Of a DNA stretch of 64,000 bases, positions 21,722 through 58,132 are shown piece after piece. Source of the DNA: Clostridiales bacterium (GTDB taxonomy: Bacteria > Bacillota > Clostridia > Lachnospirales > Lachnospiraceae); NCBI GenBank assembly GCA_021204025.1, contig JAJQAC010000019.1, positions 55,693 to 119,692 of the forward strand. The letters run 5' to 3'. The position numbers and the translations under genes are program-made. Position 1 is the stretch's first letter. Every line of letters starts with the position of its first letter. The notes beneath the pieces were generated by a model. That model worked only from the letters and a program-made list of their open reading frames with translations. It did no database searches and was not told the origin of the DNA.

Positions 21722-22177
21722 ATGGAGATCAATCAGCAGGAATACAATAAATACGTAGAACAAATCACCCCGGTACGTCCGCTGTGGCCGGAGCTTCTCA
21801 AGGCTTTTGTGACCGGAGGCGTCATCTGTTCCATCGGCCAGATATCGACCATGTGCATGATGAACTGGTGGGGGATGGAGAAGGAAACCGCGATGACCTG
21901 GACACAGCTGGAACTGATTCTTGCGAGCGTTATTCTGACCGGGTTCAATCTTTATCCAGGTATTGTAAAATGGGGCGGTGCCGGAGCTCTCGTTCCGATC
22001 ACCGGATTTGCCAACTCGGTAGTAGCGCCGGCGATTGAGTATAAGACAGAGGGACATATCTTTGGAATCGGCTGTAAGATTTTTACGATTGCCGGACCAG
22101 TGATTTTGTTTGGAGTGTTTACAAGCTGGGTGCTGGGGCTGATCTATTGGGTGCTGAAAGCTATTGGAGTGGAGTGA
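21722..22177 (+). CDS. spoVAC: Stage V sporulation protein AC
   Basis: 151 aa membrane protein. The N-terminus NQQEYNKYVEQITPVRPLW and the segments GGVICSIGQISTMCMMNWW and GGAGALVPITGFANSVVAPA are typical of SpoVAC, which acts as a mechanosensitive channel component in the spore inner membrane. I start at ATG 21722 with AAGGAG 11 bases upstream; a longer open frame runs back into the hairpin repeat and is not real. spoVAD and spoVAE, which normally follow, are not found in the window. Confidence 0.93.
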   Translation: MEINQQEYNKYVEQITPVRPLWPELLKAFVTGGVICSIGQISTMCMMNWWGMEKETAMTWTQLELILASVILTGFNLYPGIVKWGGAGALVPITGFANSVVAPAIEYKTEGHIFGIGCKIFTIAGPVILFGVFTSWVLGLIYWVLKAIGVE

Positions 22178-22410
22178 GCTGTATACTCTATTATTCATTC
22201 ATTTTGAATAAGAAAATTTGAAATTGCGCAGGTGCAACCCCCATCGAGAAAGTTAAAATTATGCTTGTTAGCTAGGAAGCTATGTGCTAAACTGCATTAT
22301 AGGTTTTATACTTTTGTCAGTAAGATAATGTAAGTTGCAATACAGATAATATGTGGCTTGATGAGCGGAACAGGTTTATCTTTAATGTAAGAAGATGGGG
22401 GATTTCATTT

Positions 22411-23706
22411 ATGCGAGGAAAATATGAAGAAAAAATATCTGAGGTAATAAAATTTGCTCAAAATAATGAAAACACTATCAGCTATAATGTTGTCGTAGAT
22501 ATATTAAAAGAAAAAACAGAAGGAGTAACAGAGACTGATATTACTAGCGTAATGCTGGAACTTAACAAATACGGAATATCCATTACGCCTGAAAAAGATG
22601 AAGGTTATACTGCTGAAGAAACAGACCCTGCAAATTTTATCCCGGCGGAAGTTAATATAGGTCAAAGGCCGGTGAATATATACAATTTAATGGAACGTTT
22701 GGAAAACAGAGAGATTGATTTAAATCCGGGTTTTCAGAGAAAAGGAAATTTATGGTCTTTGACGCAGCAAAGCCGTTTGATAGAGTCTCTGATGTTGAAA
22801 ATTCCAATTCCTGCATTTTATTTTAATGCTGCTGATGAAGACAACTGGATTGTAATTGATGGGTTACAGAGACTGACTGCATTTCAAAATTTTCTGGTTG
22901 GTACTAACGATGAAGAAAGCGGAAATAAGACGAAGAAAAAACTTGAAAATCTTCAATATCTGACGGATTTCAATGGTCATACTTTTGATGAACTTCCGAG
23001 ACAGTATATGCGGCGGATTAAAGAAACACCTGTTATCGCATATACTGTTGAAAAGGGAGCTCCCGATGAAATTGTATATAATATCTTCCAACGCATCAAT
23101 ACCGGCGGAATAGTGCTCAATGATCAGGAAATTAGACAAGCGCTCTATCAGGGTAAGGTAACTGATTTAATCGAAGAACTTGCAAGGACGAATGAGTTTC
23201 TGATTGTAACTGAACATAGTATTCGGACGGAGCGCATGCTGGACCGGGAATATGTAACACGTTTCCTTGCATTTACCGAGTTGGATCATACGAAAGAATA
23301 TAATGGCAATATAGATAGTTATTTGATTAAAGCAATGAAACTTGTTAATACATATCCTGAAGAAGATATTGATCGCATTAAAAAGAGTTTTAGGAGAATA
23401 ATGAATTATTGTTATCAGATATTTGGAAGATATGCATTCAGAAAATACAGCCGGATGGGAAGAAGAGGTCCAATTAATAAGGCTTTATTTGAAATATGGT
23501 CTTTTTGTTTTTCGAAGTTATCTGATGAAAATTTAGAAAAGCTCATAATGATCAAGGGTGATTTCCTAAAAAAGTTTGAAGAACTACAAAATGATCCGGC
23601 TTTTATAAAATATCTAAAAAGTGGCGATCAATATTCAACGAAATACAGAATTACTATGGCGCAAGATCTGATAAAGGAGATTTTATGTTACGAGAAATTT
23701 ATGTAA
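22411..23706 (+). CDS. DUF262 domain protein with sigma-1.1-like N-terminus
   Basis: About 431 aa. Residues about 80-230 are a DUF262 (ParB/Srx-like) domain with DLNPGFQRKGNLW and the VIDGLQRLTAF motif, followed by the helical INTGGIVLNDQEIRQALY segment. DUF262 proteins use nucleotides and occur in GmrSD and other anti-phage systems. The first 75 residues resemble the winged helix of sigma-70 region 1.1 (TISYNVVVDILKE then LELNKYGISITPEKDEG). I start at ATG 22411, after AAGATGGGGGA; an in-frame ATG at 22351 is possible. It overlaps the ATPase gene by 22 bases. The DNA is markedly AT-rich compared with the neighbours. Confidence 0.82.
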   Translation: MRGKYEEKISEVIKFAQNNENTISYNVVVDILKEKTEGVTETDITSVMLELNKYGISITPEKDEGYTAEETDPANFIPAEVNIGQRPVNIYNLMERLENREIDLNPGFQRKGNLWSLTQQSRLIESLMLKIPIPAFYFNAADEDNWIVIDGLQRLTAFQNFLVGTNDEESGNKTKKKLENLQYLTDFNGHTFDELPRQYMRRIKETPVIAYTVEKGAPDEIVYNIFQRINTGGIVLNDQEIRQALYQGKVTDLIEELARTNEFLIVTEHSIRTERMLDREYVTRFLAFTELDHTKEYNGNIDSYLIKAMKLVNTYPEEDIDRIKKSFRRIMNYCYQIFGRYAFRKYSRMGRRGPINKALFEIWSFCFSKLSDENLEKLIMIKGDFLKKFEELQNDPAFIKYLKSGDQYSTKYRITMAQDLIKEILCYEKFM

Positions 23707-24806
23707 AAAACTTTAAGTGCTTTGAAGATTTTACTCTGCCGTTGAGGCAGGTCAATATTCTGAGTGGTATGAATGGCATGGGAAAGTCTACAATGCTCCA
23801 AAGCATCTTATTAATACGTCAGTCTTTTTTGCAGGAAAATGTAATGAAAGGACTTCGACTAAACGGAAAATATGTTTCTCTTGGAAATGCGCAGGATATA
23901 TTGTATGAAAAAGCCGAACAAGAAATAATCGGGTTGGGATTTACTGATGAGAATCAAAAAATTCGATGGGAATATCAGTATACAGTTGATTCGGATTATC
24001 TTCCGATTATACAGCATACAGATGAATCGGACCATCCTTCAATAATAAACGGAAAAGTGTGTTGCCAAGGAATCTTAGGTACACGTTTTACGTACATTTC
24101 TGCTTATCGGATTGAACCAAAAGATTTATACAAAGTTCAGAATGAAAAAGAATTATTTAGCAGGGAATTTGGAAATAACGGTGAGTTTGCTCTACAATAT
24201 TTAGGAATGTATAGAGATGAAGAAGTTATGAATCCTCATGTGATTTTAGAAGATCGTATGGGTCCTTCACTTCTCAATCAGACAAGACTATGGTTAAATC
24301 GGATTTCTCCAGGTGTTTCACCACAGGTGATTATCAATATGCAGCAAAGGAACGCAGAGGTTCGTTATGAATATATTGAAGGTAGAGAAAAAACACAGTC
24401 CTATAAAAGTGTTAATGTTGGATTTGGAATTACTTATGTTCTGCCACTGATTGTCAGCATTCTGTCTGCAAAGGAAAATGATATTATTGTTATGGAAAAT
24501 CCGGAAGCGCATATTCATCCTTCAGGGCAGAGAATGTTGGGAGAATTAATTGCACGAGCCGGTGAAGGCGGTGTGCAATTGATCGTTGAAACACATAGTG
24601 ATCATATATTAAATGGTGTACGCTTGGCGGTTAAAGAGCATAAAGCTTCTAAAGATAATATTGAACTGTCCTATTTTTACAAAGAGAGTGATGATGGATA
24701 CAGACATAAATGTGTTTACCCTCATATTTTATCAGATGGACGACTGGATTGCTGGCCGGAAGGATTTTTTGATGAGTGGGACAATACGTTATTAGAATTA
24801 CTTTGA
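23685..24806 (+). CDS. AAA/ABC-type ATPase, DUF3696 family
   Basis: 373 aa. The Walker A motif is in SGMNGMGKSTMLQS (about residues 28-41) and the Walker B in IIVMENPEAHIHPSGQRM (about 267-284), with a following H-loop-like ETHSDHILNG. The C-terminus with DGRLDCWPEGFFDEWD fits DUF3696. This architecture is the OLD/RecF/SMC-like ATPase used in several defence systems. It overlaps the DUF262 gene by 22 bases, with GATAAAGGAG inside that gene as ribosome site, so the two are co-translated. The DNA is AT-rich like the rest of the cassette. Confidence 0.88.
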   Translation: MLREIYVKNFKCFEDFTLPLRQVNILSGMNGMGKSTMLQSILLIRQSFLQENVMKGLRLNGKYVSLGNAQDILYEKAEQEIIGLGFTDENQKIRWEYQYTVDSDYLPIIQHTDESDHPSIINGKVCCQGILGTRFTYISAYRIEPKDLYKVQNEKELFSREFGNNGEFALQYLGMYRDEEVMNPHVILEDRMGPSLLNQTRLWLNRISPGVSPQVIINMQQRNAEVRYEYIEGREKTQSYKSVNVGFGITYVLPLIVSILSAKENDIIVMENPEAHIHPSGQRMLGELIARAGEGGVQLIVETHSDHILNGVRLAVKEHKASKDNIELSYFYKESDDGYRHKCVYPHILSDGRLDCWPEGFFDEWDNTLLELL

Positions 24807-24826
24807 GTATGGAAAGTGAGGGATCA

Positions 24827-25570
24827 ATGACAGCCGCTGTGAATGATTTATCATTTAAGCAAATACACCACAGTAAGGAAGAAGCTATTGAATGTATTCG
24901 CCAATGGATGCATGTATGCAAAAGAATTGAATCTAGAGAAACGACAGCAGTAAATGAAATATATTCAGTCAGGCTTAATTCTTCTGCAGAAATTGCTCCA
25001 GGGTATCCTCTTATTGATTTAATTAAAGAATTCAAATTAAAAGAAGAAAAAAGTTATTTTCTACATTTATTATGTAATCTTCCAGAACCCGATGATTTAT
25101 CAGAAGAAACATCGGAATACTTTTACTTTATGGATATGAAATCTTTAATTTGTGCGTACGCAAAAGAGGGATTTCTGATTAGCCTTGAGACGATAGAACC
25201 ATTCAAAGAGTGTTTGATTAATGGAAAAATTGGAGGAGAGTATATATCCATTAAAAATATTTCCAAGATGGATCACGTCAATTTATATAGTCAGAAACTC
25301 GGAATTCGATTTTATCAACCCAATCCAAAACATGGAAAGACTTCATATATAGGAGCTAAGGGACGTTATGTGAATCCTATGGACTTAAGTGATGAAGAAG
25401 CTCAGAATTTATTAAACCTGGCTATTGAGATTAACGGAATTCTGTACGGGAAATTACATGGAAATTACTATTGTTTTAGGAGGCATATCAATAATTGCTA
25501 TCATGGATATAAGAATAATGACTTGGACTCAAATATTCGTTGCAAAATTGATATAGGAAATTGGGAATAG
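24827..25570 (+). CDS. Third protein of the DUF262/ATPase cassette, unknown
   Basis: About 247 aa, not recognised. No signal peptide or membrane segment. The C-terminal part is rich in Tyr, His and Cys (YYCFRRHINNCYHGY), and a conserved-looking stretch YQPNPKHGKTSYIGAKGRYV lies at about residues 165-184. I start at ATG 24827, with GAGGGATCA just upstream; ATG 24809 is the alternative, 3 bases after the ATPase stop. Tight spacing and shared AT-rich composition place it in the same operon. It may be an effector or sensor of the cassette, which is inference. Confidence 0.6.
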   Translation: MTAAVNDLSFKQIHHSKEEAIECIRQWMHVCKRIESRETTAVNEIYSVRLNSSAEIAPGYPLIDLIKEFKLKEEKSYFLHLLCNLPEPDDLSEETSEYFYFMDMKSLICAYAKEGFLISLETIEPFKECLINGKIGGEYISIKNISKMDHVNLYSQKLGIRFYQPNPKHGKTSYIGAKGRYVNPMDLSDEEAQNLLNLAIEINGILYGKLHGNYYCFRRHINNCYHGYKNNDLDSNIRCKIDIGNWE

Positions 25571-25751
25571 TATAATAAAAGAATACATATAAAATAAGAT
25601 TTCTAATATATATGTAAAAAAATGGTATTGACAGAAAAGTATTCTAAATATGTAGAGTCAAAATCTAATATGCAAGATTGGCTAATAACAAATAATTAAG
25701 GAAGAACTCAGCAACAGAGGAATTACTCATTCACCATGGGAGGCGGAAATT

Positions 25752-26114
25752 TTGTCAGAACCCCAATTAAGCAAACAAATGGAACTGATGCAGCAAAACG
25801 CCGCTTATGCTTTTCGGGAAGTCCCTACATTTGAAAACCTCTGGGAGTTGATAATTCAGTATCAATCTCATCCATTCCGTACCGTAAAAGGGCTGACCTT
25901 TACCTATGAAATCCATGGTGGAGAGATGCGTGTGAGCAGAAAGGAGAAAACAATTACCAAAAGCAGTGTGAAGATCGCCTTTCAGCGCGCCAAAGCATCC
26001 GAAGGCATCACTGGCCCGAAAAAACTGGGAGTATTTGGAGCGAGCTATCTATATCCGGTATTTATGGAGCTTGGAGTGATAAGAATGATTTCTGATAAAG
26101 AAATGGATCGATAA
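25752..26114 (+). CDS. Conserved hypothetical protein, possibly 5'-truncated
   Basis: 120 codons from TTG 25752, with GGGAGGCGG 8 bases upstream. The sequence (TVKGLTFTYEIHGGEMRVSR, KLGVFGASYLYPVFMELGVI) is coding-like and has host-like codon use, unlike the AT-rich cassette on its left. The same frame stays open upstream to a stop at 25686 and reads KEELSNRGITHSPWEAEIL, which looks like real protein. The 5' end of the original gene may therefore have been lost when the cassette arrived. Family and function not recognised. The 180 bases before it hold no other gene. Confidence 0.55.
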   Translation: MSEPQLSKQMELMQQNAAYAFREVPTFENLWELIIQYQSHPFRTVKGLTFTYEIHGGEMRVSRKEKTITKSSVKIAFQRAKASEGITGPKKLGVFGASYLYPVFMELGVIRMISDKEMDR

Positions 26115-51121: not shown

Positions 51122-54100
51122 ATGGGGAACAATGGTTTACAGGAAAAGATCAGAAAATTCAAAAGAATCATAGCTGTAATTTTGTGTGTCATTATGGCTA
51201 CAGGAACCGGCGTATCGTCATTGGCAGAATTAGGACCTTTAAATATCTGGATTCCTATTGCTTCTGACAGTAATGCAACTAAGGCGGGTGACGATGAAGA
51301 AGAACAGGAGGAGAGCAGGGTTGTGATCGCTTCCTGGTCGGATGCGACACTCTCCGACGCGACAGCTTCCAATGCGACCAACTGGCAGGCTGAACTGCAG
51401 ACCCGGATCGATGCTCTGCCGGGCATTCAGGAAATCCGGGAGGATGAGACGAATGAATTGCTGGTCGATACCTACTGGGAAGTCCTGGATATCATGGACG
51501 TCCTGAACGATCAGGTGGGCGTGGCGCTGTACGACTCGATCATGGACGCAGACGACGGTTCGATCGAGGGAGCAGACGAGCTGGATGTGAGCAGGCTGTA
51601 TGAGATCGCAGATTATGTGATGGCGGCATATGCTGCGCTGGAAGCGTCCGAACAGATGGAAGATCCGATTCCCGGGACGTATAATGGCCAGATCAAGGTC
51701 GAGGTGAAGGATTATGACGGAGATGATCAGGCAGTTCTGACGCTGGAGATCATGGGAGATCCGGATGAGGACTCGGCGGCGGATAACCATACGAACGATT
51801 ATTATTCTTTCTGGACCGCGGAGACCCTGACGCTGGATTACACGATCTACGGAGGCATCCCGGAGAATTATACCTACCGGATTTATTTCATGCCGGCGGA
51901 TGTGGAAGGTCTTTACAGCTCTCTGGAAGAAGGGCAGTCGATCGGTGAATATCTGAAGGATCAGCTTACCTTTTATACGGGCAATGCGAACGCGTCACTG
52001 ACATGGGACGATAAGCTGGATGCCTGGTATCTGGAGGTTGCGGAGAAAAGCTATGACGGTACTTATGGCGGTACGGTGCAGGTGACTTATCCGTCTCCGG
52101 ACACGCCTGGCGGAGATCTGTATATCTTTGGCGTGATCTATGATGCGAATACCGGAAATATTGTAAGCAATAACTGGAACGCTTTTGACGCGTACTGGCA
52201 GACGGAACCGGAGACCTTTGACGTGTTGATTGAGCTGGATGAGACTCTGGACGAGGGACTGGTTCTCGAATCGGGCGAAGGATCGTCGTCGCCGCATGTG
52301 GCGGTCAAGGATAATCCGGATCAGGAGATTGTTTATATCATCAGTATGGCAGATACCACACCGGCATCAGACCGGGAGGACAGTACCGGCGAGGATCTGA
52401 TCCGGTATATCGATGTAACAGATGTCATTACGCTCCCGGCCGGGATCTCGCTGGATGCGGATGTGATCCTTGAGGCGACGGTAACGGAAGAAGACGGGGC
52501 ACAGTTTATCCGCTTTAATTCCGGTGGGACAGTCCTGATGCTGGTGAATCGCAGTGAAAATAACTCCAGCGGGTATTCAATTCCTTATTACAACGCCACG
52601 GATAACACAATCACGCTTACATGGCGGATCGAAAATGCGACGCTGGATGAGACGACTGGTCTGGCGGATAGTCAGATTGAAAACGGAGTCTGGGAGGTCT
52701 GGTTAAACGGAGATTATCTGATTGCCGATGAGGATGTGTTCAGCAGTCAGGCAAGCCATGAGATTAAGAACGAAGTTACCTATCATTACACTTATACCTG
52801 GTCAGAAAATCAGGAAAACAAGAGCGAGGCGACCATCGAAATTGCAAATCCGTCCAGCAATGTGGTGTTGAGTAAGACCAAGGATCGCAGCGGTACCGTG
52901 TATATGGGGGAGGACGCTTATTATACCATCTCTCTGTATAACCAGGGAACCGTGGGCGCGACGGATCTGCTGACACTGGAAGATACCGGGCTGGATACCA
53001 CGCAGTATATCACCCCGGCAAATATTATCAAAATGTTTTTCGGAGATAGTGACGACGAAGATAAGTATCTGGCTGAGGATTCCGGCAGCTATCTGACTCT
53101 TACCATCACAGACGCTACGGTCTATTATGACGATGCTACGGATCTGGATATGACTTATGATATGTCCGGTGAGAAGACTGTCTATAAGACGAATGCCAAT
53201 AACTACCTCAACGCGAAACCGGAGCATACCGGGGTGACGATCATGATGACCCGCATGGACAAGTATACGATCGAGGTCCTTTTTACGGATGGCAGCGACA
53301 CCTTCTACGGAGGATATGTGAGCGATGAGAAGGAGCTGACTGAGCTCTTCCGTGAGATCGGTTATGTCGTGACAGCTGACGCCAGATATAGCGCGGTCTG
53401 GAATCTGAGCGCCGCCGGTACACTTACGGGAGGCGATACATGGCATTACCGGGTCTATTCGTCGATGAAAGATACGTTCCAGTATTATGAGGATCTTTAT
53501 CTGAATCAGGCGGACGGGTATAACACGGCGGCGAATACGGTCACTCTGTATTATGACAATTCCGGTAAGAGCGAAGAAGACTACCAGCAGGAAAAGACGA
53601 AAAGCGCGACCTACACAAACATAATGAGGGATTACCTTGTTAATAAGAAAGTGAATCAGATCGATGGCGAGGCAGCCGGCGACACCGACGTCTTCTACCG
53701 TGGATCGATCATTACCTATCAGTTGGAAGTGGAGCACTTCGGTACCGGAACTGTGGAGGATCTTCCACTGGTTGATAATTCGAAAGGTTCGCAGAGTCTG
53801 CTGGTTCCTCTGGAACTGAATAAGGAGTCAATCCAGGCCGGTAACTGGCCGGTTTCATGGGATACGATACAGAAAGATACTGCGCATCTGGTTACCATAA
53901 ACGGCGTCACCTACTATGATCTGTGGTACACGGACACGCGCGCAAGTTCTACCAATTTTACAGGTACTTATAATCTTGTCTGGTTTGATGAGACGCACTG
54001 TGCGGCGTCGGTGGAACTGACGACGACCAACCAATACGCTCCGACGACTTATACGTATGTAATTACATGGAACTATCATACGCTTGAAGGAAACGGAGAT

Positions 54101-57100
54101 ATATTCACTTATTATATGCTGGTCGAAGCAGACGCAGATAAGGTGGTGAATGCGCAGAATACCGTGTATCTGAATAACCGGTATCGGCAATACCACGGTA
54201 GTTACCGTATTTCAGCTCTGTACGATGAGATTGCGGAGACAGAGATCAAAGCGGGCTCATTGGATAAAAAGATCCTGACGTCAGACACCGATGTAGGAGA
54301 CTCAGAAAACGAAACCTATGCGGAATCCAGTGTGCTGGATCTGGCAAACGCTGATACGACGACAGTCCGCTATAAGTTATGGCTGCAGACAAAGAGCGGC
54401 AACTCTGAGATGACGTTTCAGCAGGTAAGGGATATCCTGCCTTATACCTACGGGGTCTTTACCTGGGAAAAGGGGAAAAATGTAAAAGTATACGGATCAG
54501 TATATGAGACCGCGGTTAAGGATGACAGCGGCAAGGAACTCTCCCCGGGTCTTGAGGATAATTATGAGATCTACTATTCAGACGCAGAGGGAAAAGAAGT
54601 TTCTGTGGATGCTGATGGATACTATGAGGAGAACGGCAGTCGGATCCCGGCCTATCAGGCAATTTCATGGGGTGATGGCAATATCACACTCCCGGAGGAC
54701 GCGGAGGGGATCTGGATCTATGTAGAACTGGATTTCTCTCTGAAAGAAGAGGATCAGACGGACTATGCGGAAGCAGTCAGCGGCTATCTTAGGAATACGT
54801 TTTCTGCAGTGATTCCAGGGAATACAACCGTGGACACTGCAGACGTGATTCACACAGTGAAAAAGGACGCGAAAGCGTATCTCCAGAAGGGCGTATACTG
54901 GATTAAAACCTATGGTTCCACCAGTTCCAACAACGCCAGTGACCTGCGGAACATTTATTATAATTCTGTATCGTCTGATGGAAATGTCGATAAAGCTCGC
55001 GTAGCATACTATATCCAGCTGTATAACGCCAGCTCTTCCTACCTGTATCTTGAGGAGATACAGGATCTGGCGCCGGAGGGCTTTACCTTTGTCTCTCTCT
55101 ATGGGGCGGCAACCGGGACACCGGGATCAGGAGCATATGAAGGAGGAGGAAACACGGCAAATACAGAGGTTACTACGGATCCGGATTCTCCCGTTTCCTC
55201 TCTGTCCGGCGATGATATCAGCGAAAAGCCGATCTGGAAGACGGCGCATATCCAGGCGGAAGAGGGAACAGACGGTGTTCTCCGCTTCCTGATCGATAAT
55301 GAGGGCGGCGACCTTCATGAGGATGAGACGACCGGATATTGCTATCTGGAGGAGGGTGAAGCAATTTGCTTTATCGCGGAATTTGAAGTGGGAGTGGATT
55401 CGGAGACCGAAAAGTACGCGGAAAATAAGATTGCTATGCCGTATGTGGATTTCTCAGACGGAGAAGTTACGGTGGCGAAGGTCAGCGGTACGGCAGTCAA
55501 CGCCTATGAGAGCACAACTGTGGCGCAGAACGTGGGAGGCTGCAGCATACTCGACGAGACAGAGCGGCGCGTAGAGGGCTTTCAGAGCGTCACGCCGAAG
55601 AATGATGGTATGGAGATCAGCCAGTGGCTTACCTCGGATGTAACCGTGCGCAGGGGTGCGATTATTCCTGGTATCAATAAAGCAGTGATTACGGACGTCG
55701 ACGAGGACGGAGGTGATACTGTGGAATGGCAGATCACTGTCAGCAATGACGGCGAGATCCCCATGGAGAATTATACGATCAGGGACATTATGGATAGCCC
55801 GTATCTGCTGATGGGCGCTGTGAATTATAAGATCTATGAGGGGGATGACCTTACTGCTACCCCGATCATGGAGATAGAAAACGGTGGAAATCCGATGTTT
55901 ACCATAATCAGAGACAGCACTACTTCGGAAGAAGCTCTGGCGGATGATTCCGAGTATACCCTTACTTGGCACTGGCTTAATGTGCTGCTCAGAGACGATG
56001 GTGAGGGAAGCGCTAAATCCGGAGAAGCCATTGAGGTCTCCGGCCTTCCGGTCAGCAGTTATATTTCGGGTACAAAGGCTACAGAAGCGGTCACGATCAA
56101 TGTGACTGTCGGCAACGAGTTGGATGGATCTGACATCAACAACTATCTGTCGATTGACTTTACCGATGTTGTCTTTGCGATCCCTGCGGGAGGAAGAGGG
56201 GTACTGACTGTCACGACGAAGGTGCCTGCAGGCACCGGCGTATCCACTGGCACTTATTATAACCTTGCGAAGATTATACCGACGCAGGTGTATGAGGACG
56301 ATGCGGTCAGCATCGGTGACGCGGTGTCAGCGACGGCCGATACCAGCGCTTATGTGAAATCCAGCGATCAGATCCATGTGACAAACGGTTACTCGACCAG
56401 TGCGCAGAAGTGGATCCAGAGTAATGACAATAAGGACAGGGTAGCCAGATCGGAGACCGGCATCCATTATATCGAGCTGGACAGCGAGAGCGAGACATTT
56501 ACCTATACTCTCGAGGTGACCAATAACCTGAGTTCTTCGATGAGAAACCTGATTATCGTGGACAGCCTGCCGCAGTCCGGAGATTACTCACCGTTCACGA
56601 CGCAGAATGAGAAAACCGAGCACGGAAGCCAATTCCAGGTTGATTTTTACGACGGCGCAGTAAAGGTGATGAAGGGTGTTAAGACCGAAGAAGAGATCAA
56701 GGATGATACGCCCGCGGAGGCCACGATCGACACCACTGCGAAGGAAGATGGCAATATTACAGATAAGGTTACGGTTCTCTACAGCGAATACAGTGAGTTT
56801 GGCAAAGGTATGTCGGATGGAAATAAGTGGGCGAGTGACAGCACGGCGGATGACGGTGGAGACTTCTGGACAACGGATTATGAGGGAGCACGATCCATCC
56901 GAATCGAGTTTAACGAACCGATCGAAAAGGGCAAGTCGGTGCAGGTGAGCTTTACCGGAAAGATTTGCACGACGAACGAGGCAGATATCGCGGAACCGGG
57001 AGAGATCGGATGGAACAGCTTCGCCTACAAGTATACGACGGATAAGTCAGAGTCGGATACCTCGGATAATGGCAGCAATGAGGCGACTCTCTGGGCGGCT

Positions 57101-58132
57101 CCCAGAAAGGTAGGTATCAAGTTCCCGGACATGCCGAAACTGACAAAAGAGATTATGGGTGTCGACGAAGATGCTGCAGCTAATATGAAGGATCAGACGT
57201 TCCGATTCCTTGTGCATGAGGGAAAATACCTGTCTGGGTTTGATTACACCGGTAAGAATACGACTTCACTGGAAAAGGATCTGATCGATGCACTGGAGGA
57301 AAATAATCTTAAGTACTTCACGAAGGAGCTTACAATCGACGTATCGGAAAGCCTTACGGGGACGATCACTCTGGATCCCGGAGATGCATTTACTTACGTA
57401 AACGAAAAGCCGTACACCGTGGTAGAGCTTCCTTACAATAACAGCAGCCGGCCGGGTAACGATGCGTTTATATATGGCTATATGGCGGTCGGAAGTAGCT
57501 ATGTACAGAAAAATGTGATTACCTTTACCTATACCAGTGGTACCATGGTCCGGGTATATGCGGACAATAAGGTGATCGAGTGGGCTCTCGACGTCGCAAA
57601 AGTCGACAAAGACACCGAAGAACCGATTCCGGGAGTGGTGTTTGGCCTGTATGCAGCGACGAAGCCGGATACGAGTACTTCTGAGAGCCTTATGGAATCT
57701 CTGGAGGGCATACTGGCAACGCCGTCTGACGCGGCGAAGATCAAGGTTGCGGATGACGATGGAGATGAGAGTACCTGGTATCTGATCGACATGCAGACGA
57801 CGGATGAGGATGGGAAGATACTCTGGAGCGGCATGACAGACAGCATTTATTACCTGAAAGAGCTGAAAGCCGCGGACGGATATTCCCTGCTGACAGAACC
57901 GATTCTGGTCGATTACTGGGAGCAGCAGGTGAATGGTACCAGCGAGTCGGAGGATGGAACCTACAAGATTATCCATATGACGGTTGAAAACAAAGTAGGA
58001 TATCTCCTGCCAAAGACCGGCGGACACGGAACATTATGGATCCAGCTGCTTGGGTTATTGCTTATGAGTATGGGCGTAAGCTTAACATACATAACCAAAA
58101 GGAAAATCACAAGTTCAAGGAGGACAAAGTAA
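51122..58132 (+). CDS. Giant LPXTG surface adhesin / pilus tip protein
   Basis: 2336 aa. A signal peptide with core AVILCVIMATGTGVSSLA ends near residue 36. The long extracellular part contains repeated immunoglobulin-like blocks of the DUF11 or isopeptide type (YYTISLYNQGTVGATDLLTL near 600, WQITVSNDGEIPMENYTI near 1540, FTYTLEVTNNLSSSMRNLII near 1790). A SpaA-like domain (WALDVAKVDKDTEEPIPGVV, then YYLKELKAADGYSLL) lies just before the anchor. The end is LPKTG, a hydrophobic segment and a basic tail, cleaved by sortase. Start after GGAGGT, 6 bases upstream. It is first in the pilus operon and, by size and position, likely the tip adhesin. Confidence 0.92.
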   Translation: MGNNGLQEKIRKFKRIIAVILCVIMATGTGVSSLAELGPLNIWIPIASDSNATKAGDDEEEQEESRVVIASWSDATLSDATASNATNWQAELQTRIDALPGIQEIREDETNELLVDTYWEVLDIMDVLNDQVGVALYDSIMDADDGSIEGADELDVSRLYEIADYVMAAYAALEASEQMEDPIPGTYNGQIKVEVKDYDGDDQAVLTLEIMGDPDEDSAADNHTNDYYSFWTAETLTLDYTIYGGIPENYTYRIYFMPADVEGLYSSLEEGQSIGEYLKDQLTFYTGNANASLTWDDKLDAWYLEVAEKSYDGTYGGTVQVTYPSPDTPGGDLYIFGVIYDANTGNIVSNNWNAFDAYWQTEPETFDVLIELDETLDEGLVLESGEGSSSPHVAVKDNPDQEIVYIISMADTTPASDREDSTGEDLIRYIDVTDVITLPAGISLDADVILEATVTEEDGAQFIRFNSGGTVLMLVNRSENNSSGYSIPYYNATDNTITLTWRIENATLDETTGLADSQIENGVWEVWLNGDYLIADEDVFSSQASHEIKNEVTYHYTYTWSENQENKSEATIEIANPSSNVVLSKTKDRSGTVYMGEDAYYTISLYNQGTVGATDLLTLEDTGLDTTQYITPANIIKMFFGDSDDEDKYLAEDSGSYLTLTITDATVYYDDATDLDMTYDMSGEKTVYKTNANNYLNAKPEHTGVTIMMTRMDKYTIEVLFTDGSDTFYGGYVSDEKELTELFREIGYVVTADARYSAVWNLSAAGTLTGGDTWHYRVYSSMKDTFQYYEDLYLNQADGYNTAANTVTLYYDNSGKSEEDYQQEKTKSATYTNIMRDYLVNKKVNQIDGEAAGDTDVFYRGSIITYQLEVEHFGTGTVEDLPLVDNSKGSQSLLVPLELNKESIQAGNWPVSWDTIQKDTAHLVTINGVTYYDLWYTDTRASSTNFTGTYNLVWFDETHCAASVELTTTNQYAPTTYTYVITWNYHTLEGNGDIFTYYMLVEADADKVVNAQNTVYLNNRYRQYHGSYRISALYDEIAETEIKAGSLDKKILTSDTDVGDSENETYAESSVLDLANADTTTVRYKLWLQTKSGNSEMTFQQVRDILPYTYGVFTWEKGKNVKVYGSVYETAVKDDSGKELSPGLEDNYEIYYSDAEGKEVSVDADGYYEENGSRIPAYQAISWGDGNITLPEDAEGIWIYVELDFSLKEEDQTDYAEAVSGYLRNTFSAVIPGNTTVDTADVIHTVKKDAKAYLQKGVYWIKTYGSTSSNNASDLRNIYYNSVSSDGNVDKARVAYYIQLYNASSSYLYLEEIQDLAPEGFTFVSLYGAATGTPGSGAYEGGGNTANTEVTTDPDSPVSSLSGDDISEKPIWKTAHIQAEEGTDGVLRFLIDNEGGDLHEDETTGYCYLEEGEAICFIAEFEVGVDSETEKYAENKIAMPYVDFSDGEVTVAKVSGTAVNAYESTTVAQNVGGCSILDETERRVEGFQSVTPKNDGMEISQWLTSDVTVRRGAIIPGINKAVITDVDEDGGDTVEWQITVSNDGEIPMENYTIRDIMDSPYLLMGAVNYKIYEGDDLTATPIMEIENGGNPMFTIIRDSTTSEEALADDSEYTLTWHWLNVLLRDDGEGSAKSGEAIEVSGLPVSSYISGTKATEAVTINVTVGNELDGSDINNYLSIDFTDVVFAIPAGGRGVLTVTTKVPAGTGVSTGTYYNLAKIIPTQVYEDDAVSIGDAVSATADTSAYVKSSDQIHVTNGYSTSAQKWIQSNDNKDRVARSETGIHYIELDSESETFTYTLEVTNNLSSSMRNLIIVDSLPQSGDYSPFTTQNEKTEHGSQFQVDFYDGAVKVMKGVKTEEEIKDDTPAEATIDTTAKEDGNITDKVTVLYSEYSEFGKGMSDGNKWASDSTADDGGDFWTTDYEGARSIRIEFNEPIEKGKSVQVSFTGKICTTNEADIAEPGEIGWNSFAYKYTTDKSESDTSDNGSNEATLWAAPRKVGIKFPDMPKLTKEIMGVDEDAAANMKDQTFRFLVHEGKYLSGFDYTGKNTTSLEKDLIDALEENNLKYFTKELTIDVSESLTGTITLDPGDAFTYVNEKPYTVVELPYNNSSRPGNDAFIYGYMAVGSSYVQKNVITFTYTSGTMVRVYADNKVIEWALDVAKVDKDTEEPIPGVVFGLYAATKPDTSTSESLMESLEGILATPSDAAKIKVADDDGDESTWYLIDMQTTDEDGKILWSGMTDSIYYLKELKAADGYSLLTEPILVDYWEQQVNGTSESEDGTYKIIHMTVENKVGYLLPKTGGHGTLWIQLLGLLLMSMGVSLTYITKRKITSSRRTK

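Follow-up and report, generated by a model that had tools for sequence, protein, structure and literature searches.

Menshen is a named anti-phage system in which a DUF262 gene is paired with a gene for an OLD-like ATPase; a published review reports that disruption of the DUF262 gene abolishes resistance, describes the ATPase as a predicted OLD nuclease and assigns a TOPRIM domain of the OLD type to one Menshen component (PMC10952713). Here we describe a trio of genes from a Clostridiales bacterium (Lachnospiraceae; assembly GCA_021204025.1, contig JAJQAC010000019.1, positions 55,693-119,692; genome G000 below), which by comparison of sequences is almost certainly one more copy of this already catalogued system. 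The window, that is the whole stretch of DNA analysed, comprises 64,000 nucleotides, and all coordinates without a locus label refer to it. We designate the three genes nsnA, nsnB and nsnC, using what we take to be the gene prefix of Menshen, presumably originating with Millman et al. 2022. All three open reading frames (ORFs) lie on the plus strand:

22178..22410, plus strand: intergenic stretch, presumed location of the promoter on the basis of sequence
22411..23706, plus strand: nsnA, DUF262 (ParB/Srx-type) protein of 431 aa; PADLOC NsnA, E 6.9e-124; PF03235
23685..24806, plus strand: nsnB, ABC-type ATPase of 373 aa with a C-terminal DUF3696; PADLOC NsnB, E 4.4e-108; AAA_15 (PF13175), AAA_21 (PF13304) and DUF3696 (PF12476)
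24827..25570, plus strand: nsnC, third subunit, 247 aa from the ATG at 24827; PADLOC NsnC, E 2.3e-50

Match of the trio to Menshen

The original prediction, made from the letters alone, had proposed an anti-phage cassette that was not a recognised named system, while allowing that a named system might include exactly these three genes. A PADLOC search upholds the first part and overturns the second, as it returns Menshen gene for gene. NsnA matches PDLC03877 over model positions 28-383 of 385, NsnB matches PDLC03878 over positions 1-343 of 345, and NsnC, when translated from the ATG at 24827, matches PDLC03911 over positions 1-238 of 245; altogether one NsnA, one NsnB and 11 NsnC models are matched by the trio (up to E 0.02). 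Other PADLOC names rank far lower, the runners-up being PD-T4-2_A for the first gene (E 4.9e-38) and HEC-03B for the second (E 1.8e-34). These ordered matches rule out an unnamed system. The A-B-C gene order on a single strand also fits Menshen, as does the tight packing, with nsnA and nsnB overlapping by 22 bases (23685-23706) and 20 bases separating nsnB from nsnC. We know of no difference in kind from Menshen; at about 247 aa, the NsnC of the trio belongs to the short type. The sequence features on which the prediction had relied are all present, namely the overlap and close spacing, the NPGFQRK and IDGLQR motifs, the Walker A (GMNGMGKS) and Walker B (IIVMENPEAH) motifs, and the domains of the first two proteins (GmrSD_N/DUF262, E 8.6e-24; DUF3696, E 3.7e-11). 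The trio is likewise AT-rich, with a GC content of 0.344 for nsnA, 0.363 for nsnB and 0.325 for nsnC, against 0.470 for the window and 0.502 for the adjacent spoVAC gene; at third codon positions the values are 0.27-0.30 for the trio and 0.59 for spoVAC.

The three genes probably form an operon. The longest mechanical frame of nsnA begins at 22351, and a G-rich stretch sits just 5' of 22411. The longest frame of nsnC opens at a GTG at 24776, inside nsnB; the ATG at 24827 is the likelier start, since position 1 of the best NsnC model aligns to the residue that it encodes and the sequence GTGAGGG precedes it.

A Pfam comparison with a cut-off of E 0.5 gave no TOPRIM match in any protein of the trio; as NsnB spans its own PADLOC model from one end to the other, we do not treat this domain as defining Menshen. 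More widely, the Pfam matches of NsnA and NsnB include no nuclease family, and neither protein has a DUF1524 match at the same threshold. Two further groups of described systems share features with the trio. With GmrSD, BrxU and SspE, NsnA shares the DUF262 domain, the DGxQR motif and a predicted fold whose closest likenesses are BrxU and SspE; however, its partners are an ABC ATPase and a third protein, and GmrSD-type restriction was rejected as an identity, DUF262 being present but DUF1524 lacking among the Pfam matches of all three trio proteins. With Gabija, PARIS (AriA) and other OLD-type ATPases, NsnB shares the ABC ATPase fold (PADLOC cross-matches; 6p74 by sequence), but it has a DUF3696 C-terminus and neither a TOPRIM match nor a UvrD helicase partner. 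Its matches to GajA models are weak (best E 1e-15), and neither neighbour matches GajB in PADLOC. A second DUF262-like protein, a weak relative of NsnA (E 4.3e-16), is encoded elsewhere in the same genome (locus L012, G000:C34, 1501-2043).

Gene partners and probable exchange of NsnC

The neighbourhood was compared across the 80 best of 96 related loci from a scan with the NsnB of the trio, in which each species was represented by one genome; L124-L132, with weak or short matches, were left out of the counts, leaving 71 loci. By their record titles these belong to Lachnospiraceae, other Clostridia, Bacteroidota, cyanobacteria and Chloroflexota-type, proteobacterial and actinobacterial genera. 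ORFs scoring above 100 bits for both NsnA and NsnB occur in 67 of the 71 loci, NsnA lying directly upstream on the same strand in every one of the 67 and overlapping NsnB in 59 when the first possible start is taken. An ORF follows NsnB in 69 loci, and an iterated profile seeded with the NsnC of the trio recovers 66 of these (missing L072, L116 and L117). The profile also matches 10 further ORFs, mostly short pieces in L068, L087, L094, L119 and L122; in L087 (7478-8360) and L094 (5944-7083) several such short ORFs come after a full NsnC, resembling leftover or stored pieces.

Among these relatives DGxQR is present in 64 of 65 NsnA proteins, and among 65 NsnB proteins all retain Walker A and 63 retain ENPExHxHP; given this conservation both proteins are probably active NTPases. 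No Pfam domain was found in NsnC or in 17 of its homologues. Structure prediction points to one domain of interest in each of the two terminal genes of the trio:

22411..22593, plus strand: NsnA N-terminal domain (residues 1-61), predicted sigma-70 region-1.1-like winged-helix fold
25376..25567, plus strand: NsnC C-terminal domain (residues 184-247), predicted toxin-like

The best likeness of the predicted NsnC domain is 5t87_E, with BrnT, ParE2, PrpT, HigB2 and RelE ranking below, and it appears to resemble contact-dependent inhibition (CDI) toxin and RelE-type folds. Across 81 NsnC sequences N6 and S119 are invariant, while S9 is kept in 74, F217 in 68, G227 and Y228 in 64 each and H220 in 59, with Glu replacing the last in 15; among 28 closer sequences Y215, H226 and Y228 do not vary.

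NsnC is also the subunit that departs from its partners. Among the best 80 of the 96 loci, the closest relatives of the trio by NsnA (59-67% identity) and NsnB (58-65%) are L053-L055, whose NsnC proteins (299-313 aa) give no BLAST match to that of the trio at E up to 10. Thirteen more distant loci (L056-L062 and L064-L069; NsnA 53-59%, NsnB 51-54%) carry an NsnC that is 35-40% identical to it. As the closest relatives differ in NsnC and the more distant ones share it, the simplest account of these sequences is that NsnC is exchanged between cassettes.

We tentatively propose, at somewhat less than even confidence, a mechanism in which NsnA, a protein with a BrxU/SspE-like DUF262 fold but without a recognised nuclease domain, would join the ABC ATPase NsnB in an NTP-driven core that responds to infection at the level of DNA or of the transcription machinery. 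This core would then activate NsnC, and the C-terminal domain of NsnC, which may be an RNase, would halt the infected cell, these last two steps being the least certain. Because neither NsnA nor NsnB matches a nuclease family, the toxin-like end of NsnC is the best candidate for a damaging activity. The main alternative, only slightly less probable, reverses these roles: NsnC would serve as an exchangeable recognition subunit by binding a phage product, NsnB would provide the coupling to ATP hydrolysis, and the effector would be NsnA (or NsnB), which would cut or nick DNA. The variability of NsnC, highest among the subunits, and its difference between close relatives of NsnA and NsnB are what such a role would lead one to expect, and the review treats BrxU and SspE, both DUF262 proteins, as nuclease systems, besides its designation of the Menshen ATPase (PMC10952713). 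Speaking for NsnC as the effector instead are the absence of DUF1524 and TOPRIM matches noted above and the likeness of its C-terminus to toxins rather than to a known sensor fold.

The site at spoVAC

The trio sits between spoVAC, a sporulation gene ending at 22177, and an ORF of 120 aa starting at 25752, which is followed by bioY:

21722..22177, plus strand: spoVAC, its 3' end being the presumed insertion site; PF03862, E 3.5e-41; TIGR02838, E 5.8e-45
22138..22177, plus strand: left edge, where identity to the empty-site relative G006 drops from 85% to 45%
25730..25751, plus strand: right edge, where identity to G006 resumes
25752..26114, plus strand: ORF of 120 aa without a Pfam match; a 74% identical ORF (in L035) adjoins spoVAC in G006

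In G006, whose spoVAC is the closest among those of 40 relatives, this gene, the ORF and bioY (84%) are consecutive and the trio is lacking. Identity within spoVAC runs at 290/327 and then 76/89 bases up to 22137, before falling to 18/40 over 22138-22177. As the composition of the trio is atypical and its closest relative has the same neighbours without it, it probably entered the genome at the 3' end of spoVAC. The sporulation neighbourhood might suggest instead a vertically inherited housekeeping unit of the genus unrelated to defence, but this is hardly credible: besides the empty site in G006 and the atypical GC, NsnB-family matches occur in just 7 of 24 genomes of the genus, at 8 places, of which only the trio locus lies at spoVAC. 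A long-resident vertical unit with no link to defence islands, the outcome that the original prediction had named as fatal to it, is likewise at odds with the other defence genes that relatives carry at this site.

A clean attachment site for the trio was sought and rejected: flanking direct repeats are chance-like matches, the end motif described below is absent, and spoVAC shows no abrupt loss of identity to G006 at the presumed core, with 290 of 327 bases ahead of the core and 76 of 89 behind it being the same. Neither an intact element end nor a recombinase was found at the trio. These absences, along with broken Menshen genes elsewhere (the NsnC of L068 and the NsnB of L114 are split), would suit a decayed or silent relic at a hotspot that no longer protects; we consider this improbable, as the three frames are open, of full length and conserved in their motifs. 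On balance we favour, with moderate confidence, the reading of the trio as a Menshen operon acquired at the 3' end of spoVAC, with NsnC as a predicted toxin-like effector of abortive phage defence. In its support are the PADLOC matches, the A-B pairing with a third gene, the motifs, the lack of any nuclease family among the Pfam matches of NsnA and NsnB, the C-terminus and the apparent exchange of NsnC, the AT-rich composition, the empty site, the other defence genes that relatives have there and the reported effect of disrupting the DUF262 gene (PMC10952713).

In the trio genome spoVAD and a SpoVAC/AEB-type gene lie on another contig (L034, G000:C15, 7117-8390) than spoVAA-AB-AC, and in several relatives spoVAD stands tail-to-tail with spoVAC. 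The trio did not by itself split the spoVA operon, because G006, without it, shows the same spoVAC-ORF-bioY order with spoVAD on a different contig.

Defence genes and duplicate spoVAC ends in the genus

Defence hotspots at fixed addresses are reported, for example, from Pseudomonas aeruginosa (PMC10250203). We surveyed PADLOC-recognised genes at spoVAC 3' ends in 24 genomes of the genus, and found defence genes beside this end, or near an extra copy of it, in 8:

G000: the Menshen trio
G010: GajA, GajB, RmrT, RmrA, PDC-S02 and PDC-M13-like genes
G013: JetA-D and a Cas3c gene
G022: a JetC fragment; the remaining, unscanned genes look like those of G013
G021: PtuA, PtuB and DruE
G012, near a duplicate end: type I restriction, specificity and methyltransferase genes
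G017, near a duplicate end: a type III methyltransferase gene; a Dsr2-like gene some 8 kb away from that copy
G023, near a duplicate end: JetB, JetC and part of JetD

From the gene prefixes we take RmrA/RmrT to be Rosmerta, Jet to be Wadjet, Ptu to be Septu and Dru to be Druantia. The defence genes of G012, G017 and G023 are on a contig other than that of the full spoVAC, and the duplicate end is their sole tie to the site. No insert is seen at spoVAC in G002, G006, G009 and G019; G003, G004, G007, G011, G014, G015, G016 and G020 have other, unscanned or rearranged content there; the gene lies at a contig end in G005 and G018, and a full copy was not found in G001 and G008. As reported for the Pseudomonas hotspots (PMC10250203), a single chromosomal address holds differing defence systems in different strains; here, however, a sporulation gene provides the address with its 3' end, which is duplicated behind a common motif in 7 relatives. 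A full-length relative of JetC (E 1.2e-133) is found elsewhere in the trio genome (G000:C53:2677-5823).

The duplication is plainest in G010, where spoVAC is followed, in steps of 7.3, 3.3 and 7.0 kb, by three further copies of its last third, each with the same sequence 5' of it. In the loci compared, this motif precedes 10 spoVAC-end copies in 7 genomes (three in G010, two in G012 and one each in G007, G015, G017, G021 and G023), with defence genes near most of the ten:

L036: 8671, 11928 and 18928
L043: 2452
L048: 7176
L133: 13178
L134: 13966
L135: 4475
L136: 12356
L140: 119

In the same loci 8 further near matches of the motif have no spoVAC after them. Run against the 24 whole genomes, a 24-base pattern of the motif (up to 3 mismatches) recovers 8 of the copies, in 5 genomes, and its reversed control none. 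In samples of the family (397 genomes) and the order (392 genomes), where the genus is represented by G000 and G009 alone, it occurs in 1 genome of the former and in none of the latter, and only a short spoVAC-like piece follows the sole match. Recombinase-family fragments (PF07508, PF13408), with no catalytic domain match, lie just after the full spoVAC of G010 and after one of its copies. In G015 spoVAC is split over two contig ends (L140, which is G015:C147 1-260, and G015:C109:130-468) with its 3' part directly behind the motif, and hence an unassembled element probably sits between the halves. From these sequences the duplicate ends probably mark where elements end at an attachment site inside the gene. 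Neither the window nor the trio genome as a whole contains the motif, and no second spoVAC end occurs at the trio; it is thus its position that hints at a possible arrival of Menshen by a spoVAC-directed element.

A more speculative scheme, which as a whole we regard as unlikely, is that spoVAC is the attachment gene of genus-restricted, defence-carrying integrative elements that rebuild its end, and that Menshen was carried by one of them, the end of which has since disappeared; NsnA would use its sigma-1.1-like domain to monitor the state of DNA or transcription, and NsnC, the exchangeable subunit, would be a RelE/CDI-like toxin released upon phage takeover. What is possibly new is the repeated adjoining of different defence systems to the spoVAC 3' end within one genus, and the duplicate ends behind one common sequence offer a searchable address for more defence genes. 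For Menshen, two leads emerge in the predicted sigma-1.1-like domain of NsnA and the predicted toxin-like fold at the end of NsnC. Elsewhere in the window, an ORF of 2336 aa (51122-58132) ends in an LPKTGG-type wall anchor and by eye encodes a large surface protein.
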